This document shows positions 10,006-59,165 of a DNA stretch of 64,000 nt, piece by piece. The position numbers and the translations under genes were made by a program. The notes beneath the pieces were generated by a model, which made no database searches, had not been told where the DNA came from, and was given only the letters and a program-made list of their open reading frames with translations. The first letter of the stretch is position 1. Each line of letters begins with the position of its first letter. This DNA is from Candidatus Thiodiazotropha endoloripes (GTDB lineage Bacteria; Pseudomonadota; Gammaproteobacteria; Chromatiales; Chromatiaceae): NCBI GenBank assembly GCA_001709035.1, contig LVKA01000015.1:62001-126000 (forward strand). The letters run 5' to 3'.

Positions 10006-10008
10006 GAG

Positions 10009-13000
10009 CTAACCCTCCTGCAGGACGACCAAGGCCTGCCCCGCTCCAACCCGCTGCCCATTTTCCAACAACACATGGGTAACCGTACTGTCGGCCGAGG
10101 CATAGACCGGAATCTCCATTTTCATCGACTCCAGAATCATCAGACACTCACCCGCTTTCACCTGTTGGCCGACACTGACCTCCGTCTGCCAGACACTGCC
10201 GCTGATCGGACTGTCGATCACCAGACTCTCTTCCGGCCAACTGCTATCTGTCTGCTCTTCGGTCTGCTCGTTCACTTCAAAGTTGAATTGTCCATCCGCA
10301 TGCCATTGGGCGAGCTCGGCTTCGAAGGCCTGCTGCCGGTGTTGACGGAATGCTTCGATCTCAGCTTGCTGTGAATGGATGAACGCCTGGTATTCAGTCA
10401 GACTGAAACGACTCTCCTCAATCTTTATCGGATAGCGACCCTGGGGAAAGTCTTTGCGAATGGTGACCAACTCATCCTGAGTGACTTCATAAAAACGTAT
10501 CTGATCAAAGAATCTCAACAGCCAGGGTTTTTCAAAGGCCGTTGTCTGTTTGTAACGGTTCCACATCTGCAGAGTGCGTCCGACGAACTGATATCCTCCC
10601 GGCCCTTCCATGCCATAGACACAGAGATAGGAGCCGCCGATACCCACTGAATTTTCTGCGGTCCAGGTTCTGGCTGGATTGTATTTGGTGGTCACCAACC
10701 GATGACGGGGATCCACCGGCGTGGCGACCGGTGCACCAAGATAGACATCACCCAATCCCATCACCAGGTAGGAGGCCTCAAACACAATCCGTTTCACATC
10801 ATCGATACTTTGAAGCCCATTGATGCGACGTATGAACTCCAGGTTACTGGGGCACCAGGGGGCGTTCTTGCGCACCGACTGATCATATTTTTCAACGGCT
10901 TTATGGCAGGCTTCGTCATCCCATGAGAGGGGTATATGCACAATCCTCGAGGGCACATGGAGCTGATCGATCTGACTCGCCAGTGCGTGCTCCGCCGTCT
11001 TCAGATGGAGCAGCAATTTGCGCTGACTGAGTCGTTGAGCATCGTAGTGAATCTGTAATGAGCGAATCCCCGGTGTCATTTCCTGCAGTCCATTGAGAGG
11101 ATGTTGCTGTAACCACTGCATCAATGCATGGGCACGAAATCGCAGTGAAATATCCAGTGCCTGTTCGCCATACTCCACCAACATGAAGTGATCGCCGGCG
11201 AGACGATAGACCACATCGACACCATATTCACTGCTTTCAAGCCGCCCCACGACAGGGGTGGTGATCTCAGTGGGCTGGTATTGATCGGTCAGCGGTCTCA
11301 TCTGCGCAACGGCCTTGATCTGATCCCGTTCCAGCCTGACGGCCGTTTCCAGATTCACCGGCACAAAGCTGACTTTATCTCCGGCACGCAGTTGCCCCAG
11401 CTTCCACAGATCGGCCTGGATCACGGTTGCCGGACAGACAAAACCGCCCAGTGAGGGACCATCCGGCCCGAGTATCACCGGCATGTCACCGGTAAAATCC
11501 ACTGTACCGAAGGCATAGGCGTTATCATGAATATTCGAGGGATGGAGTCCCGCTTCCCCGCCATCCTTACGCGCCCACTCGGGCTTGGGTCCGATCAGAC
11601 GGATTCCGGTACGGCTGGAGTTGTAGTGAACTTCCCACTGGTGTGAAAAGAATCGGTCGATATCCGGCTGAGTAAAAAAATCCGGGGCGCCGTGGGGACC
11701 ATAGATCACCCGCAACTGCCACTCATGGGTTATCTGTGGCCTGGCATTTTCAGCGATCGTTTTCAGGTCGGTTACGTTGTCGGATGAGGTGATCCTCAAC
11801 ACGTCACCAGCTCGCAGAGCCCGGCCGTTGTGGCCACCGAACTGTCCCAGGGTAAAGGTCGATTTGGAACCCAGATAGTCCGGGCAGTGAATGCCGCCGC
11901 TTACCGCCAGATAACTCCGCGCCCCCTGCTGTTTGATTCTGCCCAGGGTGAGTGTCTGCCCGGCATGAATCTCCACCGCGCTCCACATCGCCAAAGGTTC
12001 ACCATCGAGGTGTGCTTCGATCTCCGCACCGGTGAGTGCAATCCGGCTATCACAGCTGAACTTCAGGCTAGGCCCCTGGATGGTGATCTCCATGCCGGCC
12101 ACCCCGGCTGGATTGCCCAGCAGCCGGTTGGCCAGCTGAAAGGAGTAGTTGTCGAAAGGACCGGATGGAGGCACACCCACATCCCAGTAACCTGTTCTTG
12201 CGGGATAGTCCTGAATGGTGGTCTGGGTTCCTCCCTGCAGCACATCGATACGGCTCGGGGTATAGACAAAATCATTGAGATAGCGGGTCGTCACTTCACC
12301 CGCCAGTAGCAAAGGATCCCGACTCAACACCGACAGGTAGTCCAGATTGGTCTCACTGCCATAGAGTCGGATTGCTGCGAGTGTGGCCTGGAGTTTTGCA
12401 AATGCTGCCTTCCGCTCAGCAGCATGGACAATCACCTTCGCCAGCATGGGATCGAAATAGGCGGGTACTTCGACACCCGACTCGACCCAGTGGTCTATCC
12501 TCACTTCCTTGTCATCGGGAAAGAGCACCTCGGTCAACAGTCCGGGTGAGGGTTGAAAATCCCGATAGGGATCTTCCGCATAGAGTCTGACCTGGACCGC
12601 ATGGCCTTGTGGTGACAGGGTGGCACGCTCACGCTGCAGATCGACACGATCGCCTGCAGCCTGTCTGATCATCCACGCCACCAGATCGATCCCGTAGACC
12701 TCCTCCGTCACCCCGTGTTCCACCTGCAGACGGGTGTTGACTTCGAGGAAGTAGAACGCATCCGTATCCGCGTCGTAGATAAACTCAACCGTGCCCGCAT
12801 TCCGATAGTGGACACTGGAGAGCAGGGATTCGGCGGTGCGATAGAGTTGTTGGCGCATTTCGTCGGTGAGATTGGGCGCCGGACACTCCTCAACGACTTT
12901 CTGATTACGTCGCTGACTTGAACAGTCCCGTTCGCCGATCGCCAATGCGCCACCTTCACCATCCCCAAAAACCTGAACTTCGATATGTCTGGCCCTGGCG

Positions 13001-13605
13001 ATAAACTTTTCTATGAATACCCCGTCATTGGCGAAGTTGTTGGCCCCAAGGCGCTTGACCGAATCGAAGGCAGCAGTCACCTCTGCAGATGAGTGACACA
13101 ACTGCATACCGATGCCCCCACCTCCGGCGGTACTCTTCAGCATCACCGGATAGCCGATGGTCTCTGCTGCTGCCAGCGCGGACTGGAGATCCTGCAGCAG
13201 TTCGGTGCCCGGAGTCAGTGGCACATCCGCCTGTTGTGCCAGCTCCCTGGCTTTGTGTTTCAAACCGAACAGCTCCATCTGCTCCGGAGTCGGTCCGATG
13301 AAGACGATACCTTCTGCTTCGCAGCGTCTGACAAAGTCGGCATTCTCACTGAGAAAGCCGTAACCGGGGTGTATCGCATCGACACCATTCGCTTTGGCAA
13401 TGGCAATGATCTTATCCATATCCAGATAGGTATCGGCGGCCACACCATCGCCCAGGGAGAAGGCCTGGTCTGCATGGCGGACATGCAGACTATCCGCATC
13501 ACTCTCTGCGTAAATGGCCAGGGACGGGATGTGGAGTCTATGCAGGGTACGGATGATCCGTGTTGCGATGGCGCCACGGTTGGCGATCATTACTTTGGAA
13601 AACAT
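10009..13605 (-). CDS. uca: Urea/guanidine carboxylase, biotin-dependent
   Basis: Single-chain carboxylase of 1198 residues. Order: biotin carboxylase (KVMIANRGAIATRIIRTL, ATP loop STAGGGGIGMQLC), carboxyltransferase halves AHS2 (from about residue 460, PFDNYSFQLANRLLG) and AHS1 (about 790-1060), and a C-terminal biotinyl domain with ESMKMEI (biotin on about Lys1162). Family enzymes carboxylate urea to allophanate or guanidine to carboxyguanidine. Here a guanidine-I riboswitch leads the operon and two DUF1989 deiminase subunits lie directly upstream, so guanidine is the likelier substrate. An Asp/Asn difference in the carboxyltransferase site is reported to separate the two specificities; I could not place that position with certainty. 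Confidence 0.95.
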   Translation of the reverse strand: MFSKVMIANRGAIATRIIRTLHRLHIPSLAIYAESDADSLHVRHADQAFSLGDGVAADTYLDMDKIIAIAKANGVDAIHPGYGFLSENADFVRRCEAEGIVFIGPTPEQMELFGLKHKARELAQQADVPLTPGTELLQDLQSALAAAETIGYPVMLKSTAGGGGIGMQLCHSSAEVTAAFDSVKRLGANNFANDGVFIEKFIARARHIEVQVFGDGEGGALAIGERDCSSQRRNQKVVEECPAPNLTDEMRQQLYRTAESLLSSVHYRNAGTVEFIYDADTDAFYFLEVNTRLQVEHGVTEEVYGIDLVAWMIRQAAGDRVDLQRERATLSPQGHAVQVRLYAEDPYRDFQPSPGLLTEVLFPDDKEVRIDHWVESGVEVPAYFDPMLAKVIVHAAERKAAFAKLQATLAAIRLYGSETNLDYLSVLSRDPLLLAGEVTTRYLNDFVYTPSRIDVLQGGTQTTIQDYPARTGYWDVGVPPSGPFDNYSFQLANRLLGNPAGVAGMEITIQGPSLKFSCDSRIALTGAEIEAHLDGEPLAMWSAVEIHAGQTLTLGRIKQQGARSYLAVSGGIHCPDYLGSKSTFTLGQFGGHNGRALRAGDVLRITSSDNVTDLKTIAENARPQITHEWQLRVIYGPHGAPDFFTQPDIDRFFSHQWEVHYNSSRTGIRLIGPKPEWARKDGGEAGLHPSNIHDNAYAFGTVDFTGDMPVILGPDGPSLGGFVCPATVIQADLWKLGQLRAGDKVSFVPVNLETAVRLERDQIKAVAQMRPLTDQYQPTEITTPVVGRLESSEYGVDVVYRLAGDHFMLVEYGEQALDISLRFRAHALMQWLQQHPLNGLQEMTPGIRSLQIHYDAQRLSQRKLLLHLKTAEHALASQIDQLHVPSRIVHIPLSWDDEACHKAVEKYDQSVRKNAPWCPSNLEFIRRINGLQSIDDVKRIVFEASYLVMGLGDVYLGAPVATPVDPRHRLVTTKYNPARTWTAENSVGIGGSYLCVYGMEGPGGYQFVGRTLQMWNRYKQTTAFEKPWLLRFFDQIRFYEVTQDELVTIRKDFPQGRYPIKIEESRFSLTEYQAFIHSQQAEIEAFRQHRQQAFEAELAQWHADGQFNFEVNEQTEEQTDSSWPEESLVIDSPISGSVWQTEVSVGQQVKAGECLMILESMKMEIPVYASADSTVTHVLLENGQRVGAGQALVVLQEG

Positions 13606-13690
13606 GCTTACCTTGACCGGGTCGTCCCGGTTAAAAAAGCGTCATCAGTGGTCGTCCACTGATCTTTCGTTAATCAATGCGGCAAACTGT

Positions 13691-14338
13691 TCAGGCACTA
13701 CCCCAGATCAGACACTCGATCGGGGTTGGGTTGTAACCGTTACAGGGGTTGTTCAATTGAGGACAGTTTGAAAGCAACACAATCACATCCATCTCGGCCC
13801 TGAGCTCCACATACTTTCCCGGGGCGGAGATACCGTCTTCAAAGGTCAATCCCCCCACTGCGGTGACCGGCACATTCATAAAGAAGTTGATGTTATGAGT
13901 GATATCTCGTTTGCTGATGCCATACTCGGGGTGTTCCGCCACTGCCAGCATCCAGCTGTCACGACAAGCGTGCATGCAACGCTTCTCCAGATCGTAGCGC
14001 ACGGTATTACTTTCCGTGGCACAGGCACCACCAAGGGTATCGTGACGGCCACAGGTATCGGCCACCACTTCCAGCATCACGTTATTCTCATTCGAGCGGA
14101 GTTTCGAACCGGCAGTCAGATAGACGTTACCCTGCTCCCTGATGGTATCCATGGCACTGTAGCGCTCTGCCGGATCATCGGCTGAATAGAACAGGGTATC
14201 CGCCGCCTGGTTACCTTCCAGATCGAGGATGCGAATCGTCTCACCCGCTTTGACGATGCCGATGAAATAGTCACCTGCATCAACCCGGGTTCTTCGGCTT
14301 GCCTGCTGCGCCAACAGCTCTGACTCTTTGATCATCAT
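13691..14338 (-). CDS. DUF1989 carboxyguanidine deiminase subunit (UAAP2 type)
   Basis: A 215-residue protein of the urea carboxylase-associated family (DUF1989). Established work shows that paired DUF1989 proteins next to this carboxylase form a heteromeric carboxyguanidine deiminase (CgdAB) that converts carboxyguanidine to allophanate and ammonia. Visible hallmarks are [10 protein letters not shown] near residue 45, the Cys/His block [16 protein letters not shown] and the C-terminal [16 protein letters not shown], which probably supply metal ligands. Its ATG directly follows the stop of its partner gene. I do not assign A or B subunit identity. An 85-base gap separates it from the carboxylase. 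Confidence 0.93.
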
Positions 14339-15073
14339 CTACTCTCCAATGCCGATATGATAGAGGGCGTTATTCTGAAATCCCCGGGTATTTTCCGCCC
14401 TGAAGTGCATGCAGTAGTCATCCGCTTGCAGTGCCTCAGCCACCCCCAGTTCGATCTGCACTCTGCTTTGCGGATAGTCTGCCGACCGGTTCATCGGGTG
14501 TGGACAGGTGTGCATCATGACAAGCGTGTCCATCTCAAAGCGCAGAGTCACCTGATCACCCGCCTGGCTGTGATCAGCAGCCAGTTCAAGATTACCCTCA
14601 TCGTTAACCATCACTTTGCTGAACCAGTTGATGTTGGCGGCAAGGTCTGCCGCACTGAGGCCATACTTGGCCAGCTCCACCAGAAAAGCATCATGGCCGT
14701 TCTGTTTCCAATCGTTGCGATCGTGTTGATAATCCCTTGCCCCCCACAGGCTCTCAACATGTGAGGCATGGGAGTTTCCGGCAACTGTCTCATGCCAACC
14801 CAGGCTGTCTTCCACGATAGAAGCAAAGATTCTCCCCATATCCGAGTAGAGACAATTGCCTCTGGTCAACTTAAAGGTATGTTGGCATTTCAGGGTGTCC
14901 GGTGCGTTGTATCGCTCCAGAAGATTCTCCGGGTTATAGAAGAGCATTCCCAGATTGGCGGCACCTTTTATATCGCTCAGCCGCATGATGCTGCCTCGGC
15001 GCACACGTAGCGACCAATGGGCCCCGCCGGGCAGTTCCGTTGTATAGTCAATCGACTTGATCATATCGCTCAT
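14339..15073 (-). CDS. DUF1989 carboxyguanidine deiminase subunit (UAAP1 type)
   Basis: A 244-residue paralogue and presumed partner of the downstream DUF1989 protein. Family landmarks are GAANLGMLFYNPENLLERYNA near residue 40 (shown in part), LTRGNCLYSDMGRIF, and HTCPHPMNRSADYP near the C-terminus. The pair is expected to be cytoplasmic and to act between the carboxylase and allophanate hydrolase. The start may be ATG 15073 or the internal ATG three codons later (MIKSIDYTTELPGG). Spacing to the ATPase gene upstream is 13 bases, so all these genes should be cotranscribed. The older name, urea amidolyase-associated protein, implied urea; the riboswitch argues for guanidine. Confidence 0.93.
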   Translation of the reverse strand: MSDMIKSIDYTTELPGGAHWSLRVRRGSIMRLSDIKGAANLGMLFYNPENLLERYNAPDTLKCQHTFKLTRGNCLYSDMGRIFASIVEDSLGWHETVAGNSHASHVESLWGARDYQHDRNDWKQNGHDAFLVELAKYGLSAADLAANINWFSKVMVNDEGNLELAADHSQAGDQVTLRFEMDTLVMMHTCPHPMNRSADYPQSRVQIELGVAEALQADDYCMHFRAENTRGFQNNALYHIGIGE

Positions 15074-15086
15074 ATTGATCTCTCCA

Positions 15087-15893
15087 CTAACCTGCTTGAG
15101 CCGGTATCGGTCTCAAGTGGTCGTCGATCTGTTGATAGGTTGTTTGATCCATATGCCCCACCGGCAGATCATAGGTAATCACGGCACCGTACCTTTGTGG
15201 CGCCTGGGGATCATGTCTCAGCTTGTCGAACACCCACAACCGGGTGCCCAGATAGAAACCCTCTTTCAGGTCATGGGTGACCATGAAGACGGTCAGTTTG
15301 TGTTCACTCCAGAGGTTTAACACCAGGTCGTGCATATCCGATCGGATACCTGGATCGAGGGCACCGAAAGACTCATCCAGCAACAGTATCCGAGGCTTAC
15401 CCAGCAGGGCCTGGGCAAGCGCCAGACGCTGCCTCATACCACCGGAGAGTTCATGGGGATACTTCTTCAACGCCTGACTGAGACCGACCTGTTCGAGTAT
15501 CGACTCAGCCGCCTCACGGGCTGCGCTTCGCCCCGAACCGAACAGATAACCGGTAATGCCTGGACGTTGAAAGCCACAGGTCGCCATCACATTCTCCAAC
15601 ACGGTCATATGGGGAAATACCGAGTATTGCTGAAACACAATACCCCGATCCGATCCCGCTTCATTCGGGATCGGTTTACCGTCGAGCAGTATCTCGCCTT
15701 TGGAGGGCTGTTCGGTGCCCAGCAACATGTTCAAGAAGGTACTCTTACCGCAACCCGAGGCGCCAACCAGGGTGACGAATTCTCCCTCATCGACAGTTTT
15801 GTTGAGACGTTCCAATACGATGTTGTCGTCATACTGCTTCCATACCTGGTTCACCTGAATCATCGGTGTGGAATCTTGATCGGTTTCACTCAT
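15087..15893 (-). CDS. ABC transporter ATPase, guanidine/urea-carboxylase-linked
   Basis: Nucleotide-binding subunit (268 residues) of a nitrate/sulfonate/taurine-type importer. Walker A is GASGCGKST, the signature is LSGGMRQRLALAQALL, Walker B is RILLLDESFGALD and the switch His is in MVTHDLKEG. The N-terminus MSETDQDSTPMIQVNQVWKQY is normal for the family. Its start overlaps the permease stop (ATGA), so the two are translationally coupled. Together with the permease and periplasmic protein it should import the nitrogen substrate of the pathway, presumably guanidine, but the substrate is inferred from context only. Confidence 0.93.
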   Translation of the reverse strand: MSETDQDSTPMIQVNQVWKQYDDNIVLERLNKTVDEGEFVTLVGASGCGKSTFLNMLLGTEQPSKGEILLDGKPIPNEAGSDRGIVFQQYSVFPHMTVLENVMATCGFQRPGITGYLFGSGRSAAREAAESILEQVGLSQALKKYPHELSGGMRQRLALAQALLGKPRILLLDESFGALDPGIRSDMHDLVLNLWSEHKLTVFMVTHDLKEGFYLGTRLWVFDKLRHDPQAPQRYGAVITYDLPVGHMDQTTYQQIDDHLRPIPAQAG

Positions 15894-16711
15894 GACTTAC
15901 CTCCCTGCACATACCAAGGAAAGAGTTTGTTCGTCAGCTTCCGCAGAGTCACATCAATGAGAAATGCGAGGATGGTTATCCAGGCCACATAGGGAAGAAT
16001 CACATCCATCGCCATGTAACGCCTTACCAGGAAGATCCGATACCCCAGACCGTCTGTTGCAGCGACCGCTTCCGCCGCGATCAGAAACAGCCAGCCTGCA
16101 CCGAGCGACAAGCGCACCGCATCGAACAGTTTTGGCATGATCTGGGGCAGCAGCACCCGAATCATGATCTGCGAGGTATTGGCGCCCAGTGACTGGGCTT
16201 TTACCAACTGCTCGAAGGGAATCTCCTGAGTGCGTCGTTGAATGTCCCGGGCGATGAAGGGTGTGATGCCGAGGGCGATCAAAACCACTTTAGAGAGCTC
16301 GCCGAGACCGAAAACAATGAACAGAATCGGCAGAATCGCCAGCGGTGGTATCAGCGAGACCACAGTCAGCAATGGCGAAAGGGAGGCAGCGATCATCGGC
16401 AGTGCGCCGGTCACCAGACCGATCAGCAACCCAAGCATTGCCGCAATCAGGATTCCCAAACCGAGACGGGTCAGACTGCTGGCGGTATCCTGCCAGAACA
16501 GATACTCGCCGGATCGTTTGCTGGGCTCGAAGGCCATCCGTTCCAGACCATCGGCAATCTGACTCATGCTGGGTAACAGTTTGTCATTCGGATTCACTTC
16601 CAGACGGGCATCCGAACCCATCACATAGAGCAGGATCAAAAGCACAAAGGGTGCGATACCCAATAACAGCTTGAATGCCCTGCCCGGGTGTTGATTGATG
16701 AATTTCTTCAT
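15890..16711 (-). CDS. ABC transporter permease, guanidine/urea-carboxylase-linked
   Basis: Inner-membrane permease of the SsuC/TauC type. It has an N-terminal helix (LLLGIAPFVLLILLYVMG) and about five further helices. The cytoplasmic EAA-like loop lies around residues 165-200 (PFIARDIQRRTQEIPFEQLV...AQSLGA). I prefer ATG 16711 (MKKFINQHPGRAFK), because the 14 upstream codons add no recognisable membrane or family sequence; neither start has a strong ribosome site. A 220-base gap with a strong hairpin separates it from the binding-protein gene upstream. The N-terminus, with about 25 periplasmic residues after the first helix, resembles transporters linked to urea carboxylase. Confidence 0.9.
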   Translation of the reverse strand: MKKFINQHPGRAFKLLLGIAPFVLLILLYVMGSDARLEVNPNDKLLPSMSQIADGLERMAFEPSKRSGEYLFWQDTASSLTRLGLGILIAAMLGLLIGLVTGALPMIAASLSPLLTVVSLIPPLAILPILFIVFGLGELSKVVLIALGITPFIARDIQRRTQEIPFEQLVKAQSLGANTSQIMIRVLLPQIMPKLFDAVRLSLGAGWLFLIAAEAVAATDGLGYRIFLVRRYMAMDVILPYVAWITILAFLIDVTLRKLTNKLFPWYVQGGKS

Positions 16712-16845
16712 AGGGTTTCTCGAAACAAACTCCACCGGCCAGCCTGCATGCAAAGCTATGGCATTGAGCGTCCAATGGTAATTAAGGAGGATGAAATCTC
16801 CGCAACAATCGATCAGCTTCAGGCCGCAATGATTAATTCACTCAT

Positions 16846-16873
16846 CGACATCCCGGCCTTTGCCGGGATGTCG
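16846..16873 (-). other. Intra-operon 12-bp hairpin after the binding-protein gene
   Basis: CGACATCCCGGC and GCCGGGATGTCG pair perfectly over 12 bases around a 4-base loop, in the gap between the substrate-binding protein and the permease. There is no T-run, so it is more likely an mRNA-stabilising or partial-attenuation hairpin. Such structures often keep the binding protein more abundant than the membrane components. Confidence 0.6.
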
Positions 16874-16930
16874 AATCAAAATTGCATTGCCCGAGTCAAC
16901 TGATGGTCTGCTAAATCTAACAATATCCAG

Positions 16931-17971
16931 TTAGAGCTTGCCTTCCGCAGCCATGGTCATGTAGCTGGGGTCAAAGCGGAACTTGATATTGCCTTTATCA
17001 CCGAAGGTGCCGGCAGGCATCTCGATACCGATAAAACCCGCATCCGGCGCACCGTCACCCAACAGGCCATGATCGAAGGAGAAGTTGGCGACATGCTCCA
17101 TGGTGGCCAGCAGTTCTTTACTGTTGGTGAGCTCCAGAGCCGCCGCCGGAGTATAGAACATCTCGGTACTGGCCAGTTGTGCTTCATAGCCTGCCAGGTC
17201 GGTACCGGATGCGGTTGCCATATGGGTTTTCGCATCGACGCCAGCCTTATCGGAGCCACTCATGACAGACATGATTTCATACCAGGCACCCACCAGCGCC
17301 TTACCCAGTTTCGGGTTGGCCTTGAGTGTTTCGGTATTGATTACCAGCAGATCGATAATTTCGCCCGGAATCATCGAGGAATCGAACACCTTGGTGCTCT
17401 TTGGCATGGATGTGATCTCACTCAGCAGAGGATTCCAGGTAGCAACGGCAGTGACATCATCGGTGCCGTAGACGGCAACCATATCCGCATCGGAGGTATT
17501 CACCACAGTGAGATCCTTTTCACTCAAACCAACACTCTCCAGACCACGGGCCAGCAGATAGTGCGAGACACTCAACTCCACCAGGTTAACCTGCTGCCCT
17601 TTGATATCGGCCAGCTTGTCCTTGCCTTTCAGCACCACCCCGTCGTTACCGTTGGAGAAGTCACCCACCACCAGTGCGGTACTGTCCACACCACCGGCAG
17701 CTGGAATGGTCAGGGCATCCATGTTGGTCATGGTACAGGCGTCGAACTCACCCGCTGTGTATTGATTGATCGATTCAATATAGTCGTTGATCTGCACCAC
17801 TTCGATATCGATACCGTATTTATCAGCCCATTTATTGACAATGCCCTGCTCTGCCCCATAGGCCCAGGGCATCCAACCGACATAGATCGACCAGCATATT
17901 TTGAAACTGTCGGCGGCCTGAGCCACAGAGCTAAGAGAAAGTGCGAGAATTAATGCGGCAAAACGTTTCAT
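16931..17971 (-). CDS. Periplasmic substrate-binding protein, guanidine/urea-carboxylase-linked ABC transporter
   Basis: A 346-residue binding protein of the NMT1/TauA-like fold with a clear signal peptide (MKRFAALILALSLSSVAQA, cleavage before ADSF). The mature part starts with ICWSIYVGWMPWAYGAEQGI, rich in aromatic residues that could line a cation-binding pocket. It is the first gene after the guanidine-I riboswitch. Its Shine-Dalgarno GAGAGG sits six bases before the ATG and is exactly complementary to a segment inside the riboswitch region. Function as a guanidine-capturing protein is inferred from operon and riboswitch, not from sequence alone. Confidence 0.92.
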   Translation of the reverse strand: MKRFAALILALSLSSVAQAADSFKICWSIYVGWMPWAYGAEQGIVNKWADKYGIDIEVVQINDYIESINQYTAGEFDACTMTNMDALTIPAAGGVDSTALVVGDFSNGNDGVVLKGKDKLADIKGQQVNLVELSVSHYLLARGLESVGLSEKDLTVVNTSDADMVAVYGTDDVTAVATWNPLLSEITSMPKSTKVFDSSMIPGEIIDLLVINTETLKANPKLGKALVGAWYEIMSVMSGSDKAGVDAKTHMATASGTDLAGYEAQLASTEMFYTPAAALELTNSKELLATMEHVANFSFDHGLLGDGAPDAGFIGIEMPAGTFGDKGNIKFRFDPSYMTMAAEGKL

Positions 17972-17996
17972 GAAGAACCTCTCAGTTACATCTGTC

Positions 17997-18160
17997 TACA
18001 CGGAGCACCCTTGGCAGTCAGACCAAGCAAGTCTCCCGGGCTTTTATCCCGCCGTGTAACCCATACCCTGCACTGAGAGGGAGAGGTCGAACGCTCTTGG
18101 ACCAGTCATCGCAGCTCACCACCTTGTCTGGTATTGAGCCGGATCGGAACCCTAGCTTTC
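17997..18160 (-). promoter_or_regulatory. Guanidine-I riboswitch (ykkC class)
   Basis: Read on the minus strand, the region has the hallmark ykkC elements in order: CTAGGGTTCCG at 18155-18145, ACTGGTCCAAGAGCG near 18105-18091, ACACGG at 18057-18052 and GGGATAAAAGCCCGGGAGA at about 18050-18032. A downstream CCGTGT at 18004-17999 can pair with ACACGG. This class binds guanidinium and turns on detoxification or assimilation genes. The SD of the following gene at 17983-17978 lies in ACTGAGAGG, the exact complement of CCTCTCAGT at 18080-18072 within the RNA, which suggests an expression platform acting on translation start. No U-rich intrinsic terminator is visible. Confidence 0.95.
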
Positions 18161-18975
18161 TATTTCGGTTAAATTGTATTGTCCTGATAACAAGGGCACG
18201 GACGCAAACTACTTTGCAAAACCCAGGCCAATGAAATTAATTGACCAATATTCAATACTTTAACCAAAACAACATCTAATCCCCGATCGCTTCATCCTTG
18301 GAACACGAAGCAGAATGGTGCACGCTGGCAACCGCTTCGCACCAAAAACACGCAGCCGAAACAGTCGAGCGTCACAGCGTTCTCATTGATTTACGTTAAA
18401 ATGACAGATGGCAGACATCGGAATCTGTTACCGGACATCCAAGGAGCAATGACGGCTCATGAGGATATCTGTAACCTTATGTCACCCCGTCAATTCAAAT
18501 AGGTCCACTCACGATCAGGCTGACTCTATCCGTTACCTGATCGAGCACTATCCTGGTAACCATTAAGATCTTGCCTTTGGCGATGACGAATCGGTCTACC
18601 CCGGCAGCGGTGAGCGACAATCGAGAGTCTGGAGGCCGGATAGTATTGCAGACCCTGCCTGGTTCAGTTTGATCAATGATCATCCATACCGCTTTTTTGC
18701 TGGGCACAGAAACAGATCCAGCAAGGCGCATTAGATTCGTATTAGCAGGTCCTAAAATCGTAGCCCTCAAAGTTGCCGGGCGATTGTTGTTCAATAAGGA
18801 GATCGAAATTTAGTGGATCAAGCAGTGATTTGCCGCATATAAACACGAATCACCACGACTTTCGCGCCACTATAGCGAGAGGAGAAATATCTGTCAGACA
18901 AGTCTGGCCGAATGTGGGAACAACAGGGTTTACGCCTTATCAAACTACCAAACCTGTGGTAATTGATCACCCATC
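18161..18975. other. Long intergenic stretch; promoter of riboswitch operon, otherwise nothing firm
   Basis: About 800 bases without a recognisable gene. The left end should hold the promoter of the guanidine operon. A 17-codon frame at 18449-18502 (plus, MTAHEDICNLMSPRQFK) has a good AAGGAG six bases before its ATG but matches nothing I know; it may be the relic of a decayed gene. A 99-codon frame on the minus strand at 18495-18794 lacks family features and is not called. Confidence 0.5.
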
Positions 18976-52723: not shown

Positions 52724-52972
52724 TCAATGTTCACATTTATCCAGATTTTCCTTTGCACCAGGTAAAACTGTGAGTAGAAATGTGGCAATTAGAATCAATG
52801 GAGCAAACAAAAGAAGTATCAATCCTGCAAACATCACAATCTGCTGCATGTACAGAATGTCCGGTACGATTCTGCTCCCGGCCAGAATCATCAGGATACC
52901 TGCAATAAAAAATATGGAGGAGACAACGACCCCCTCTCGCATCGATTTACAGCCGATTTTCAATAGACCCAT
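52724..52972 (-). CDS. Two-helix membrane protein after NapC-like cytochrome
   Basis: An 82-residue protein with two long hydrophobic helices (about 17-38, VVVSSIFFIAGILMILAG, and 44-72, QQIVMFAGLILLLFAPLILI). GAGGAT lies six bases before ATG 52972, and the gene follows the NapC-like gene by 35 bases, so it belongs to that operon. No family recognised and no heme motif. It could stabilise the membrane cytochrome complex or act in quinol access; this is a guess from context. Confidence 0.75.
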   Translation of the reverse strand: MGLLKIGCKSMREGVVVSSIFFIAGILMILAGSRIVPDILYMQQIVMFAGLILLLFAPLILIATFLLTVLPGAKENLDKCEH

Positions 52973-53007
52973 CGGTTATCCTCGTTTTTTCAGCCGAGTA
53001 AACATAA

Positions 53008-53637
53008 TCACTCCCCACCAAGCAGTATATCTGCCTCACCCGGCGACAAACCAAACTCCTCTTCAATCATCCGGTTCCACTTATCCCTTTTGAAAACAGC
53101 TTTATCCGGTACAGCTCTGTGTACCAGATTGTAATGACATTCGATGCAGCTCTTCTCTTTTGCATCCTCGGTATGGATCAGAACCGTATCCGGTCGGGTG
53201 CCATAGATTGCCTCTTTGACATGGCATCGCTTACAGGTAGCAGAGTCCCGCTGCTTGAACCAATCCCTGGCGGCAAATGCAGCGTCAGGCAGATGCAGCG
53301 CATTAATCACCGGATCATCGTACTCCGGGCCGAAAATCTGATTGAACAGATCCTTGCCCCCAATAAAGTGATCCCAGGTTGCGGCAAATACACCTTCGGA
53401 TACATGGCAGTCTCCACAACTTGCGCGTACACCCGAAGCGGGTCTGTAGTGGGAGGATTGCCGATAGGGTTCGGCAACCAGTTCCATTGAATGGCAGGTT
53501 GTACAAAAGGTTTCCGTGCTGGTGAGGTGATCGAATTCAGTCAAAAAAAGTACAAACCCGATACCGGCGAATCCGCCAATCAACAGTGCAAACACGACAT
53601 GGCGAGTAATGAACAGTGGCAGTCTCAGCTTACTCAT
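53008..53637 (-). CDS. NapC/NrfH-like tetraheme cytochrome c
   Basis: Membrane-anchored quinol dehydrogenase of ~209 residues. One N-terminal helix (ITRHVVFALLIGGFAGIGFVLFL) leads to a periplasmic domain with four CXXCH sites: CTTCH, CGDCH, CKRCH and CIECH. The first heme block TFCTTCHSME and the following SSHYRPASGVRASCGDCH are typical of NapC/NirT/NrfH. ATG 53637 overlaps the end of the octaheme gene upstream, so the two proteins are made together. By analogy with HaoC or NrfH it should exchange electrons between the quinol pool and its octaheme partner. Confidence 0.93.
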   Translation of the reverse strand: MSKLRLPLFITRHVVFALLIGGFAGIGFVLFLTEFDHLTSTETFCTTCHSMELVAEPYRQSSHYRPASGVRASCGDCHVSEGVFAATWDHFIGGKDLFNQIFGPEYDDPVINALHLPDAAFAARDWFKQRDSATCKRCHVKEAIYGTRPDTVLIHTEDAKEKSCIECHYNLVHRAVPDKAVFKRDKWNRMIEEEFGLSPGEADILLGGE

Positions 53638-55099
53638 GGCTCTCTTTCCCAATGCCGTAACCGAGAATCGGATTCGGTTTTCCCGGATTGTTCAGCCAGC
53701 TGTGCTGATCCAGGCTGGTGACATGCATTTCAATCAACTCATTGGCAGTCTCTTCTCCGGCGAGCTGACGAAGCTGGGGCAGAAACTCACCATAAAAATT
53801 CTGCCCTACCTTGTGCATCCCCTCCCATGAGGCATAGTTGGGACTCATCATCGCCGCACCATGACGCGCTGCCGTACCCTCATCGTGCCAGAGCCGCCAG
53901 AAGCTGAACTCGATCGGCTCATCAAACGGCGCAGGGGTTAGCAATTTCTTCTCATAGAGTGCCGACATAATTGCCTGAGCCGGTTTGCCGAACTTCTCGT
54001 TGTAGAGCTTGACCACATTGTCAAACTGTTTCATGTAGCTGTTTACGAAGTTCTTGCCGTGACACTCAAGACAGACTTTAGTCATGACCTGCCGACGCCG
54101 TTTCGGACTGGCAACCGCCTTAACCTTACCCATAGTGCCATCCAGTTTACTCAGCTCTGACCCTCGCCTTGGGGCTGGCTGGGAATCGGGCAATTCCCTT
54201 CGATCCCCATCTTCGAAGATGACCAGATACTGTTGCTCGGATATCGGACGATTGAGGCTCCAGGCATCCCGCATCCCCACATCGTGACTTCCTTTCACGC
54301 CCGGAGTGGAGCCCATATGGCAAGTGACACAGGTTGGTGCGGCACTATAGTCCTTGCCAAGCACCCACTGATCAGCCTCCAGATTCATTTTCGATCTATT
54401 GGCTTCATAGAGCATGCCATGCTTCGAGCTTGCGTAGACTTCATCGTCCGGGGAGTCAGGACCGGTATGACACCAGGTGCAGGCACTCGGATCCCTGGCC
54501 TGCGCCTTGGAAAAACTGTGACGCCCATGGCAGGCGGAACATGAGCCGAGGGAACCGTCCGGATTAATCCGCCCGATACCGGTATTGGGCCAGGTTTCTG
54601 GCGTCAGGGTACCATCACCACGCACTTCCACTTTGGAACCATGACACTGGGCACAGCCTGCGGCAACCATCTCTTTGCCGCTCAGATTATCTGCCAGAGC
54701 AGGTAAGCGATTCTTGATCATACTCAGTGCTTTTGCATGGACCGACCCCTCAGTCTCCTTGAACTCCTTGTCATGACAACGGCCACAATCCTTCGGGGTG
54801 ACAATGGTGGCGATGATTGCACCTTCATGCTCTATTGCATCGTTATCGACCTGGTCAGCCAGATGGCAATCAAGGCAATTAACCCCAGCCTCGGCATGGG
54901 CACTGTTCTGCCATTCATGGGTTAAAGCCGCTGAAGATTTTTTATGACAGGAGACACACTCCTTACCCTCTTCCAGACCCCAGTTGCTTGGATCCAGTTT
55001 TACCTTTTCAGCCATGGCCGAAGAAGCCAGACCAAACCATATCAAAAGCGCAAGCAGCGCCCACTGACCAGTGCGTCCCAATGATTGCAGATCGAGCAT
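53630..55099 (-). CDS. Octaheme cytochrome c of the hydroxylamine oxidoreductase family
   Basis: Periplasmic protein of 489 residues with signal peptide (to ...SSAMA-EKVK). It has eight CXXCH sites: CVSCH, CLDCH, CGRCH, CAQCH, CSACH, CTWCH, CVTCH and CLECH. The block CVTCHMGSTPGVKGSHDVG and the following DAWSLNRPIS strongly recall HAO. I could not identify the Tyr that crosslinks heme P460 in ammonia oxidisers. With a NapC-like partner it resembles the nitrite- or hydroxylamine-reducing HaoA/HaoC pairs of Campylobacterota. Direction of catalysis and substrate are therefore open. I chose ATG 55099; a TTG start five codons earlier is less likely. Confidence 0.9.
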   Translation of the reverse strand: MLDLQSLGRTGQWALLALLIWFGLASSAMAEKVKLDPSNWGLEEGKECVSCHKKSSAALTHEWQNSAHAEAGVNCLDCHLADQVDNDAIEHEGAIIATIVTPKDCGRCHDKEFKETEGSVHAKALSMIKNRLPALADNLSGKEMVAAGCAQCHGSKVEVRGDGTLTPETWPNTGIGRINPDGSLGSCSACHGRHSFSKAQARDPSACTWCHTGPDSPDDEVYASSKHGMLYEANRSKMNLEADQWVLGKDYSAAPTCVTCHMGSTPGVKGSHDVGMRDAWSLNRPISEQQYLVIFEDGDRRELPDSQPAPRRGSELSKLDGTMGKVKAVASPKRRRQVMTKVCLECHGKNFVNSYMKQFDNVVKLYNEKFGKPAQAIMSALYEKKLLTPAPFDEPIEFSFWRLWHDEGTAARHGAAMMSPNYASWEGMHKVGQNFYGEFLPQLRQLAGEETANELIEMHVTSLDQHSWLNNPGKPNPILGYGIGKESHE

Positions 55100-55489
55100 G
55101 CCTCCCCCTTGCAAAGTGCGTTCTTGAATTGTTATCTACCGCGTTCTCAAAGATAAACTCAGGACACGTTCACTCTGCTCTCAGTTACAGATTACTTATT
55201 AGTTTGGTAGGAAATAGTTTCCGGCGCAGATACCAACTTGCTTATCATTTTTTGTTTAAGACTAGACCTGAAAATACCCTAACACTATGCAATTTTTATA
55301 ATTGATGATCAATACGTCTTGCTGTAAACCGCTTTTTTTCTGATTACTCAAAAGTATATTAGCTTTTTATAAATGAGTATTTTCCCTAATTGATGAGATG
55401 CCATTAAAAGTGTGATTATTGAGCGGGTAAAAATTCGCAAACATGAGGGTCATGGAATTGCGAAGTTAATAAAAAAACGGAGGAAGTAG
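55100..55489. promoter_or_regulatory. Divergent promoter region of the two multiheme operons
   Basis: A 390-base AT-rich spacer shared by the HAO-like and pentaheme/OTR units. At 55301-55313 lies ATTGATGATCAAT, a perfect 6-bp inverted repeat around one base. It contains TTGAT and ATCAA half-sites like FNR, but the spacing (one base rather than four) does not fit FNR. GGAGG lies seven bases before the pentaheme ATG. No sigma-54 element found. Confidence 0.55.
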
Positions 55490-56770
55490 ATGGATAATAA
55501 CAAAGGGCTTACCCTGCTGTTCGCAATAATCGGATGGTTTGGTATACACACTCTCGCATTGGCTGAACCCCTTCATCAAATCTCATCGGAAACCTGCAAG
55601 ACCTGCCACAAAGAGATCTACAAGCAGTGGAAAGGATCGATGCATGGAAACAGTTCAGCACTCAACGATCCGATTCACGCCACCTTCTACAAAAAGGTAG
55701 TGGGTGACCCTACCAAGGAAGGGGTTAAACACAAGGCATCAGGCAAGTATCCCATCTGTCTGCAGTGCCATGCACCCAATGCGGCAAAGGATAAAACCAC
55801 CAAACTCGACGCCAAACCGGCCTACTCCGAAGGGGTCAACTGTGTGGTTTGCCATACCCTGAAAAAGTACAACGGCATTCAGGCGCCGAATGGCAAATTG
55901 CAGCTCGGCCTGAAGGCCTATGACTACTCCAAAGATGCGATACAGGGACCGGGAAGACACTCCAATGTCGGCTTGCAGAAACTGTCTGCCGCAGGTGACG
56001 CCTTCGGTGGCAGCGCCATGAGCGACGACAGTAAGCCCAATCCACATTTAGGCGAAGCGGTAACCGTTGACGGCAAAGAGATTCCCTCCATTCCTATGGA
56101 GAGCAATCCCAAACTGATGAAAACCTCAGATGCCTGCATGGGTTGTCATGACCAGCGTAACAACCCACACGGTGTTCCTCTCTGTCAGACCGGTAACGAG
56201 TACTCCATCAGCCACTCTCAGGTAAACTGTCTCTCCTGTCATATGCCGATCAATGACGGGCTGGCGGATCACTCCATGGGTGGTGGACACGACAGCGGCA
56301 TTCTGCAGCGTTCTGTGGTGTTTGATGTCTCTACCGAATCTGTTGGGGATGTCATCCGGGCAACTGCCTATCTGAAAAACCCTCAACCTCACAGCCTGCC
56401 AACCGGGGCGCCTTTCCGTAATATCTACATGAAGCTGACTGCCTATGATGGCGAGGGTAATGTGGTCTGGGAAAATGCCAAGGGTCATCCGAAGGATGGG
56501 GATTCCAAAGCCTACTTCGTCTATGCCTTGGCTGACAGCGAAGGTAAACCAGCCATGCCGCCTACCGCAACAGCACTGGGTAAGGATTCACGTCTTAAGC
56601 CTCACGAAGAGCGGACCCTGGTCTACGATATACCGTCGAAAGGGGTAAAACTGGTGCGCGGTGAACTCTACTACAATCTGCTTTGGCCGGTACTGGTAGA
56701 GAAGTTCAAGCACCTGCCGGAAGATTTGACCGCACCTACACTGATAGCAACTGCGGAAAGCACACTTTAA
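55490..56770 (+). CDS. Pentaheme cytochrome c with C-terminal beta domain
   Basis: Secreted protein of 426 residues with signal peptide (to ...THTLALA) and five CXXCH sites: CKTCH, CLQCH, CVVCH, CMGCH and CLSCH, all within residues ~34-255. This part resembles cytochrome c554-type electron carriers. From ~270 on, a heme-free domain (VFDVSTESVGDVIRATAYLK, NPQPHSLPTGAPFRNIYMKL) looks like a beta-sandwich of the kind found after multiheme domains in such proteins. Preceded by a strong GGAGG. A hairpin follows before the OTR gene. It probably shuttles electrons to the OTR-type protein or to the HAO-like protein; the true role is unknown. Confidence 0.85.
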   Translation: MDNNKGLTLLFAIIGWFGIHTLALAEPLHQISSETCKTCHKEIYKQWKGSMHGNSSALNDPIHATFYKKVVGDPTKEGVKHKASGKYPICLQCHAPNAAKDKTTKLDAKPAYSEGVNCVVCHTLKKYNGIQAPNGKLQLGLKAYDYSKDAIQGPGRHSNVGLQKLSAAGDAFGGSAMSDDSKPNPHLGEAVTVDGKEIPSIPMESNPKLMKTSDACMGCHDQRNNPHGVPLCQTGNEYSISHSQVNCLSCHMPINDGLADHSMGGGHDSGILQRSVVFDVSTESVGDVIRATAYLKNPQPHSLPTGAPFRNIYMKLTAYDGEGNVVWENAKGHPKDGDSKAYFVYALADSEGKPAMPPTATALGKDSRLKPHEERTLVYDIPSKGVKLVRGELYYNLLWPVLVEKFKHLPEDLTAPTLIATAESTL

Positions 56771-56783
56771 CTGATAACAAACA

Positions 56784-56809
56784 GGCTTGGCATCAGCGGA
56801 TGCCAAGCC
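56784..56809 (+). other. 11-bp hairpin between pentaheme and OTR genes
   Basis: GGCTTGGCATC and GATGCCAAGCC pair perfectly around a 4-base loop, right after the pentaheme stop. No T-run follows. It may protect the upstream mRNA or reduce read-through into the OTR gene. Confidence 0.65.
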
Positions 56810-56946
56810 GCACAAACCTCACTTTCAGAGGTTGGATTTATCCTCTGAGCAGTATCGAAAAATCCCGTTGTATTTGCAGGACGCATAAGTAGTTGTACTT
56901 GGCGAACCATGTCGGTTTGTCCCTAATATTGACTATAGGTGGCGTG

Positions 56947-58569
56947 ATGCTTCGTATTGCCCGATGCTTGAAAAACAGCAACCCTGGTCTGTTGTCTCTA
57001 GTCTGTTTTCTACTGGTTTGTCTGCCTCTAGCTTCAGCAACTGCCGCAGTTGAAAAGCAGAGCAACTCTACAGCTGATCACACGAAATTCGAAGAGCTCC
57101 AACAGGAGTTTGATTCCGCTCCCGAGGTGACCAAGGCCTGCCTGGGTTGCCATACCGAGGCCAGTAAACAGATCCATAAAACCACCCATTGGAATTGGAA
57201 ATTCACCCATCCGGCAACCAATCAGGAATTAGGTAAAAAGAAGGTGGTCAACAGCTTTTGCGGCTCTATTATCACCAACTATGCCCGCTGCACCAGTTGT
57301 CATATCGGTTATGGCTGGAAGGACGACAGCTTCGATTTTGCCTCAGAAGTGAATGTCGACTGCCTGGCCTGCCACGACACCACCGATACCTATCGAAAAT
57401 TTCCCACGGATGCCGGTCATCCCGCTTATGTGGATAAGCCCTTCCCGCCGAAAAAGGGCAAAATATGGAAGGCGCCGGATCTTACACATGTGGCACAAAA
57501 TGTCGGCAAGACCCGCCGGCAGAACTGTGGCAACTGCCATTTCCTTGGTGGCGGTGGCGACGGGGTAAAACATGGCGACCTCGACTCCTCCATGTACAAC
57601 CCGTCAAAAGAGCTGGATGTGCATATGGGTGTGGATGGACTCAATTTCGTCTGCACCGAATGTCATACCACCGATGGGCATGATGTTAAGGGCAGCCGAT
57701 ATACCACAGTGGCCAAGGATACCCACGGTATCGACATACCAGGCCGGGATGATGAAAGCCGAGCCACCTGTGAGTCCTGCCACGGCCTCAAGCCCCATAC
57801 TGAAACCATCAACAACAAGATCAACGACCATACGGACAAGGTGGCCTGTCAAACCTGCCATATCCCCTACTATGCCAAGGGAGGCATACCGTCAAAAACC
57901 TGGTGGGATTGGTCAACCGCAGGACGAATGGATGCGGATGGTAAACATATCAAGAAAAAGGATGAAAATGGTTATGTCACTTATGTAACCAAAAAAGGCA
58001 GTTTTGAGTGGGGTGAAAACCTGATTCCGGAATATGACTGGCTCTCCGGCGATATCCGTTATCAGGAACTTGATCAAAAACTCGATCCGAATGCCATCGT
58101 CCCCATCAATACCTTCAATGGCAGTTACGATGATCCTGACGCCAGAATCTGGCCTTTCAAGATCATGCGGGGGAAGCAACCCTACGACAAGGGCAATAAT
58201 ACCCTGGTCATCACCCATCTTTTCGGCAAGGACAGTGAGGCCTATTGGAAATCCTTCGACTGGAATCGGGCCATCAAGGCTGCCATGGATGCTGCCGGTG
58301 CAGACTATAGCGGTGAATATGGTTTTATCGAGACCACCTACCACTGGCCTCTGTCCCATATGGTGGCGCCTAAGGCAGAAGCCCTTGGTTGTGACAGTTG
58401 TCACAGCCGGGATGGTCGCCTGGCCAATCTGACTGGATTCTACATGCCGGGCAGAGACCGGAATGAGCTCCTCGATATCATCGGCTGGCTGGCGGTTTTA
58501 GGTACCCTGGGTGGCGTTTCACTTCACGGCTTGGCCCGGATAGCAATGCGCGGCAGGAGGAAAGATTGA
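56947..58569 (+). CDS. otr: Octaheme tetrathionate reductase-type cytochrome c
   Basis: OTR-family protein of 540 residues with eight CXXCH sites: CLGCH, CTSCH, CLACH, CGNCH, CTECH, CESCH, CQTCH and CDSCH. The family hallmark GGGGDGVKHGDLDSSMYNPS follows the fourth heme. A signal segment (LLSLVCFLLVCLPLASATAA) precedes the mature protein, and a C-terminal helix (IIGWLAVLGTLGGVSLHGLA) anchors it in the membrane. Shewanella OTR reduces tetrathionate, nitrite and hydroxylamine in vitro; its physiological substrate is not settled. ATG 56947 has AGGTGG upstream and is preferred to an earlier in-frame start. Its stop overlaps the cytochrome b start. Confidence 0.93.
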   Translation: MLRIARCLKNSNPGLLSLVCFLLVCLPLASATAAVEKQSNSTADHTKFEELQQEFDSAPEVTKACLGCHTEASKQIHKTTHWNWKFTHPATNQELGKKKVVNSFCGSIITNYARCTSCHIGYGWKDDSFDFASEVNVDCLACHDTTDTYRKFPTDAGHPAYVDKPFPPKKGKIWKAPDLTHVAQNVGKTRRQNCGNCHFLGGGGDGVKHGDLDSSMYNPSKELDVHMGVDGLNFVCTECHTTDGHDVKGSRYTTVAKDTHGIDIPGRDDESRATCESCHGLKPHTETINNKINDHTDKVACQTCHIPYYAKGGIPSKTWWDWSTAGRMDADGKHIKKKDENGYVTYVTKKGSFEWGENLIPEYDWLSGDIRYQELDQKLDPNAIVPINTFNGSYDDPDARIWPFKIMRGKQPYDKGNNTLVITHLFGKDSEAYWKSFDWNRAIKAAMDAAGADYSGEYGFIETTYHWPLSHMVAPKAEALGCDSCHSRDGRLANLTGFYMPGRDRNELLDIIGWLAVLGTLGGVSLHGLARIAMRGRRKD

Positions 58570-59165
58570 TGGCAAAAGTAATGATGTACAAACGCTTTGA
58601 GCGTTTATGGCATTGGTCTCAGGCTTTCCTGATCATATCGATGCTGATTACCGGCTTCGAAATTCATGGCACCCTCACCCTTTTCGGCTTTGAACAGGCG
58701 GTGGACCTGCATATCACCTTTGCCTGGACACTGATCGGTCTGTGGATATTTGCCATCTTCTGGCATCTGACCACCGGGGAGTGGAAGCAGTACATCCCCT
58801 CCAGCGCCAACAAGCTGATGGCGATGGCCAAATACTACGGGGTCGACATCTTTCTCGGTGGGGGCCACCCGTTCCACAAAACCAGGGAGCACAAGCTCAA
58901 TCCGCTGCAGCGCATGGCCTACCTTTCTCTTCATGTGCTGATCTCCCCGGCGGTCTGGCTCAGCGGCCTGCTCTATCTTTTCTATACCTCCTGGGATGCC
59001 TGGGGTCTGGGGTGGCTGAGCCTGGGTGCCATAGCCCTGATCCATACAGCAGCCGCCTTTGCCATGCTGACCTTTCTGGTGGCCCATCTCTACCTGGCGA
59101 TTACCACCAGCAAGGAGCCCTTTGGCTATGTGAAGGCGATGATCACCGGTTACGAGGAAGAGTAG
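58569..59165 (+). CDS. Cytochrome b561-type membrane subunit
   Basis: A 198-residue b-type cytochrome with four transmembrane helices. Candidate heme ligands: RLWHWSQAFLI, DLHITFAW, LSLHVLISPAVW and FLVAHLYLAI. The family is that of thiosulfate reductase/formate dehydrogenase/Ni-Fe cytochrome b subunits. The ATG overlaps the OTR stop (TGATG), so OTR and this protein should form a complex that links the quinone pool to the octaheme protein. The segment HKTREHKLNPLQRMAY marks the OTR-associated subgroup in my reading. Confidence 0.92.
   Translation: MAKVMMYKRFERLWHWSQAFLIISMLITGFEIHGTLTLFGFEQAVDLHITFAWTLIGLWIFAIFWHLTTGEWKQYIPSSANKLMAMAKYYGVDIFLGGGHPFHKTREHKLNPLQRMAYLSLHVLISPAVWLSGLLYLFYTSWDAWGLGWLSLGAIALIHTAAAFAMLTFLVAHLYLAITTSKEPFGYVKAMITGYEEE

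Follow-up and report, generated by a model that had tools for sequence, protein, structure and literature searches.

HaoCA of the Campylobacterota (epsilon-Hao), reportedly described by Haase et al. in 2017, is linked to the formation of ammonium from nitrite or hydroxylamine, and we know of no pentaheme c552 partner for it. Proteins of the NapC/NrfH family normally move electrons from quinol to periplasmic reductases, and for the pentaheme cytochrome c552 of Thermochromatium tepidum, of which a crystal structure exists, no physiological partner is to our knowledge known so far. In the orange Beggiatoaceae, BOGUAY_0691, a protein resembling hydroxylamine oxidoreductase (HAO), is encoded beside napAB and reduces nitrite weakly, and BOGUAY_2386, a relative of the octaheme OTR family, has a tetrathionate-reducing activity of up to 93 micromol per minute and mg, compared with 1.3 for nitrite (PMC6449678). 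Here, we report a multiheme cytochrome locus at positions 52,724 to 59,165 of a 64,000-nucleotide stretch of Candidatus Thiodiazotropha endoloripes (contig LVKA01000015.1; the whole stretch is called the window). Genes for a HAO-like octaheme, an NrfH-like (NapC/NrfH-type) tetraheme and a c552-type pentaheme cytochrome form a conserved triad in this locus, next to a separable pair encoding an OTR protein and a cytochrome b. We give a probability of roughly 0.55 to the reading that the triad is a quinol-fed reductase that turns nitrite and/or hydroxylamine (or NO) into ammonium, with the pentaheme protein as its carrier and OTR plus cytochrome b as a separate accessory reductase.

A close relative of the HAO-like protein (at least 59% identity) was encoded by 64 of 147 genomes from the order. 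Since the pentaheme gene neighboured the HAO-like gene in 63 of these 64 genomes, we concluded that the arrangement did not arise by chance; the two genes were divergently oriented in 57 of these, and the 64th HAO-like match lay at a contig end. When the reading frames of 62 named loci were clustered all against all, the HAO-like (62 loci), NrfH-like (62), pentaheme (57), cytochrome b (21) and OTR (19) genes emerged as widely recurrent, the NrfH-like gene adjoining the HAO-like gene in all 62, and beyond these no other gene recurred widely in the 62 loci. The remaining wide clusters consisted of shadow frames, and the small ones reflected local synteny within single genera. The conserved unit is the triad of HAO-like, NrfH-like and pentaheme genes. 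It is common to sulfur oxidisers as different as clam symbionts, tubeworm symbionts and purple sulfur bacteria, and octahemes of the type found here (clade A, see below) occurred in Lamellibrachia tubeworm symbionts and in many purple sulfur bacteria (Thiocapsa, Allochromatium, Thiohalocapsa and Halochromatium). A preliminary description of this DNA knew of no described system combining both octaheme types with opposite quinone couplings, and no description of the triad as a set was found in the literature that we searched. A widespread multiheme system of ecologically important sulfur oxidisers is now given a clear three-gene definition.

The genome carrying the window is 4.87 Mb in size and nearly complete. 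All six genes of the locus lie where the preliminary description had placed them, and its count of 25 CXXCH sites was confirmed (HAO-like protein, 8; NapC/NrfH-type protein, 4; pentaheme protein, 5; OTR, 8). The features of the locus are as follows.

52724-52972, minus strand: 82-aa two-helix membrane protein (hydropathy scan)
53008-53637, minus strand: predicted NapC/NrfH-type tetraheme quinol dehydrogenase with an N-terminal membrane anchor (PF03264, 118 bits; alignment of 15 orthologues)
53630-55099, minus strand: HAO-like octaheme cytochrome (clade A) with a signal peptide and eight CXXCH sites, core of the triad (ATG start; PF13447/PF13435)
55115-55489, no strand: intergenic region from which the two units diverge
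55490-56770, plus strand: c552-type pentaheme cytochrome, completing the triad (match to PDB 5ze8 of Thermochromatium tepidum)
56784-56809, plus strand: hairpin with an 11-bp stem between the pentaheme and OTR genes, without a T-run on the plus strand
56893-58569, plus strand: OTR-family octaheme protein with a C-terminal membrane helix, part of the optional module (TIGR04315, 635 bits)
58566-59165, plus strand: cytochrome b561-type membrane subunit, part of the optional module (PF01292, 73.6 bits)

The HAO-like protein is a member of the HAO superfamily (PF13447, with its eight CXXCH sites in the HAO order), and its reading frame, with the ATG at the 55099 end, is open up to 55114 on the minus strand. 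By sequence and structure, its nearest PDB relatives were IhOCC (4qo5), followed by HAO and reducing-HAO entries. All five matches with E < 0.001 in a predicted-fold search were octaheme HAO-superfamily entries; the AlphaFold model behind this search was of moderate quality (pLDDT 69, TM 0.4) and was used solely to confirm the superfamily. HAO numbering was fixed through a true HAO of an ammonia oxidiser, which was obtained in a search of the phylum and aligned end to end with 1fgj. At the column of Tyr467, which is Tyr in HAO and forms the cross-link to heme 4, alignment revealed Ser429 in the window protein, Trp in nearly all of clade A, and Trp or His in the other HAO-like clades. The Asp267 position was kept as Asp across clade A, with Glu in one member. 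Because the P460 tyrosine and His268 are both absent, identity with HAO, the P460 hydroxylamine oxidoreductase, was ruled out, and the protein probably works reductively; absence of the cross-link tyrosine has been taken as a mark of reductive HAO-like enzymes (PMC12758564).

In a maximum-likelihood tree, clade A was separated from clades B, C and D and from HAO with 100/100 support, while the long branches leave the deeper branching order unsure. In the active-site alignments, the row A_L068 holds a paralogue from that locus that belongs to clade C; it was left out of the tree. By the preliminary description, its reading would fail if the two operons rarely co-occurred in relatives or if the HAO-like protein grouped with a family of defined function; the operons co-occurred in no more than about one third of the relatives, and the HAO-like protein fell into no such clade among the sequences sampled. 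Furthermore, the CXXCK motif of the active-site heme of the octaheme nitrite reductases (TvNiR/ONR) was found in no protein of the locus. Other octahemes of the superfamily were also encountered. The genome carrying the window encodes a second HAO-like octaheme (L037, contig C21), 48% identical, with a diheme cytochrome and an SQR-like gene nearby, and at loci L163, L164 and L169 clade-C octahemes adjoin 9-heme proteins of 638-675 aa, the second half of the one at L169 being cytochrome-b-like.

The tetraheme protein, whose ATG start overlaps the stop of the HAO-like gene, matched the general NapC/NirT Pfam model and scored 51.8 bits with the NrfH model TIGR03153, below its cut-off of 134.2. 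The pentaheme protein, with five CXXCH sites, was similar to T. tepidum c552 (5ze8) over its whole length (E 1e-176, 591 bits over 401 residues) and is thus a member of that family. It is probably the electron carrier of the triad, and the conserved linkage gives T. tepidum c552 a partner; no genetic tie of c552 to an octaheme/NrfH pair was found in the literature searched. The c552-type family has been compared structurally with the ExtKL-like pentahemes of cable bacteria and the archaeal AvECN nanowire (PMC11976967). Selenocysteine in the pentaheme protein was considered and rejected, as the alignment placed Ala at the Sec position of MccSep.

In the reading that we favour, the tetraheme protein would oxidise quinol at the membrane and pass the electrons into the periplasmic octaheme enzyme, which would form ammonium by reducing a small nitrogen compound, with nitrite and/or hydroxylamine (or NO) as the likeliest substrate. 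As a dedicated carrier, the pentaheme protein would link this enzyme with further donors or acceptors in the periplasm, and OTR with cytochrome b would form an optional quinol-fed tetrathionate/nitrite reductase that shares the neighbourhood and perhaps the carrier. Gene content, the conserved linkage, the loss of the P460 tyrosine and of His268, the kept active-site residues of OTR and the separability of OTR are direct observations; the direction of electron flow, the substrate and the role of the pentaheme protein are what we infer here. Nitrite and hydroxylamine are favoured as substrates because of the NapC/NrfH-type partner, the activity of BOGUAY_0691, the existence of napA-adjacent paralogues and the lack of NrfA. 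Such paralogues, about 50% identical, directly adjoin napA in six genomes of the order (G082:C116, G079:C219, G044:C83, G080:C50, G098:C91 and G005:C3), and napA with the adjacent HAO-like gene is likely to be a nitrate-to-ammonium pair. NrfA was found above the family cut-off in 0 of the 147 genomes, although a divergent NrfA could escape this search. In tubeworm symbionts, the fate of the nitrite from nitrate respiration has been called dubious (PMC7787665), and the relatives of the locus in these symbionts are candidate nitrite reductases. The proposal of the preliminary description that the locus is a quinone-linked respiratory multiheme module, with nitrogen or sulfur oxyanions as likely substrates, was supported.

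Several observations weigh against this reading. The His268 position is Ser throughout clade A, while it is His in HAO and in all other aligned HAO-like clades, and a different substrate is therefore possible. Both NapA and NarG were missing from 15 of the 64 triad genomes, so that nitrite cannot in general come from nitrate respiration by the cell itself; in these 15, the enzyme may draw on nitrite, hydroxylamine or NO from outside, or on something else. In the loci that were read, clade A never adjoined nap genes, and the triad and NapA were weakly associated (odds ratio 2.4, p 0.016, without correction for phylogeny). Finally, a distant relative (locus L159) has HAO-like and NrfH-like genes without the pentaheme gene.

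The OTR protein scored well above the cut-off of its family model (635 versus 375 bits for TIGR04315), and the residues equal to Cys64, Asp150 and Lys153 of Shewanella 1sp3 are conserved in it, including the active-site Lys ligand and Cys. Its gene lay within 6 kb of the HAO-like gene in 23 of the 64 genomes and was absent from the other 41 loci, and the co-occurrence of both octaheme types, which the preliminary description had pointed out, thus holds for the window but for only about one third of the relatives. In four close relatives (octaheme 90-94% identical), OTR and the front of the cytochrome b gene were deleted, with two kinds of junction and a remnant of cytochrome b left behind, and the triad was intact. 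OTR and cytochrome b, whose start overlaps the OTR stop in the window, are separable from the triad. OTR of the window subtype (at least 57% identity) was restricted to triad genomes (30/30), so that any dependence would run from OTR to the triad. Because BOGUAY_2386 reduces both tetrathionate and nitrite, we consider it most likely that the OTR protein acts as a reductase of these two compounds, fed by its own cytochrome b. NapC/NrfH proteins and cytochrome b561-type reductase subunits both normally oxidise quinol, and nothing known of these families points to the opposite quinone couplings that had been proposed for the two units.

Other genes of the OTR family showed unusual features. In genome G047 (L172:1941-3533), an in-frame TGA stands at the first Cys of an OTR CXXCH; selenocysteine was rejected, and decay or an assembly error is likelier because the second OTR copy of this draft is frameshifted. 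An OTR protein of genome G142 (L177:5995-7896) has an N-terminal DsrJ-like triheme domain, giving 11 CXXCH in one protein, and is followed by cytochrome b. Contig C7 of the genome carrying the window holds a second pair of OTR and cytochrome b (L038), as well as a gene for an 888-aa, 10-heme OTR-like protein that is distant from OTR (L039:6358-9024).

Several other explanations can be set against a triad that forms ammonium. It is rather doubtful that the triad reduces another substrate, such as an oxyanion of sulfur or some other small oxidised molecule, with the His268-to-Ser and Tyr467-to-Trp changes marking the shift. Only in clade A is the catalytic His invariably replaced by Ser, the triad occurs in purple sulfur bacteria and in the 15 genomes without nitrate reductase, and its frequent partner OTR belongs to a tetrathionate reductase family, one relative having the DsrJ-like domain mentioned above. 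However, no sulfur gene was conserved beside the triad in the 62 named loci, the nearest relatives with measured activity use nitrogen compounds, and the atypical heme motif that typifies the octaheme sulfite reductases MccA/SirA is absent, all eight sites being CXXCH. We keep as a tentative possibility that the clade-A octaheme has a function of its own, marked by the loss of both HAO catalytic landmarks and by an obligatory partner, the nanowire-related pentaheme; it would then be a new reductase or conduit driven by quinol in sulfur-oxidising bacteria, acting on a substrate new to the superfamily. The active-site substitutions of clade A offer a sharp test of direction and substrate choice in HAO-type enzymes. 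That the triad is an electron conduit, leading from quinol through the octaheme to the nanowire-related pentaheme for delivery in the periplasm or outside, is unlikely. The pentaheme gene is the most constant partner (63/64), and its structural links to ExtKL-like pentahemes and AvECN fit such a role, but no outer-membrane porin or other component of extracellular electron transfer recurs in the 62 loci, the retention of Asp267 by nearly all octaheme members fits an enzyme, and the 5ze8 cytochrome is reported to be a soluble protein.

Two further explanations were considered. The view of the preliminary description, a single integrated respiratory unit of HAO-like protein and OTR, fed by H2, could draw on the adjacency of all genes in the window and on the restriction of the OTR subtype to triad genomes, but we consider it very improbable, as OTR is so often absent from the locus and was deleted in the four relatives that keep the triad. 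An H2-uptake hydrogenase does lie beside the locus in the window; elsewhere it adjoins the locus in the closest relatives only and is not conserved beside the triad, which leaves H2 feeding without support. An oxidative hydroxylamine oxidoreductase system that sends electrons into quinone is hardly credible. Although membership of the HAO superfamily would allow it, and a member of the NapC family might in theory pass electrons to quinone, the cross-link Tyr and His268 are both missing, and neighbours of the haoB/c554/cM type do not recur in the 62 loci. The reversibility that had been suggested is likewise left without support, as the Tyr that marks oxidative HAOs is missing.

Of 19 loci with OTR, 14 had a hairpin at the same place after the pentaheme gene, as did 12 of the 39 others, with differing sequences; mononucleotide shuffles of the 58 gave 0.8 on average. 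The hairpin may set the pentaheme:OTR ratio, and in loci without OTR some of them may be terminators. No general FNR, CRP, NsrR or sigma-54 site was detected across 47 divergent intergenic regions; exact FNR-type sites were present solely in the regions of two Lamellibrachia symbionts and not in that of the window. The C-terminal helix of OTR and both helices of the 82-aa protein were visible in the hydropathy scan. Some of the relatives also carry a gene for the latter (40-93% identity), conserved 3' of the one for the NrfH-like protein, and family searches with the protein gave nothing above cut-off. Elsewhere in the window, a guanidine-use island is found at 8194-18166 on the minus strand, in a symbiont-related genome, with a guanidine-II riboswitch (13617-13663) and a guanidine-I riboswitch (18031-18166, minus strand) preceding genes for urea carboxylase/allophanate hydrolase and for a 'urea' ABC-transporter binding protein.

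Compared with known systems, the octaheme protein has its best PDB match, in both sequence and fold, in IhOCC of Ignicoccus hospitalis (4qo5), where the His268 position is also replaced (Val, versus Ser here); IhOCC differs in being archaeal and membrane-associated, with other gene partners, and the similarity is distant. BOGUAY_0691 is likewise a HAO-like octaheme of a sulfur oxidiser; a Thiomargarita sequence falls in clade B, outside clade A. The OTR protein matches TIGR04315 and has the equivalents of Cys64, Asp150 and Lys153 of Shewanella OTR (1sp3), but it carries a C-terminal membrane helix while Shewanella OTR is soluble and periplasmic; BOGUAY_2386, too, has an adjacent cytochrome b gene. 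With NrfHA, the triad has in common the logic of a tetraheme quinol dehydrogenase joined to a multiheme reductase; the catalytic subunit here would be a HAO-type octaheme instead of the pentaheme NrfA, and the tetraheme protein is below the NrfH cut-off. HaoCA combines a HAO-like octaheme lacking the cross-link Tyr with a NapC/NrfH-family tetraheme partner, and such a partner is also present here (PF03264, 118 bits; 62/62 loci). Judged by its sequences, the triad thus appears to be a variant of the HaoCA/NrfHA kind of system.

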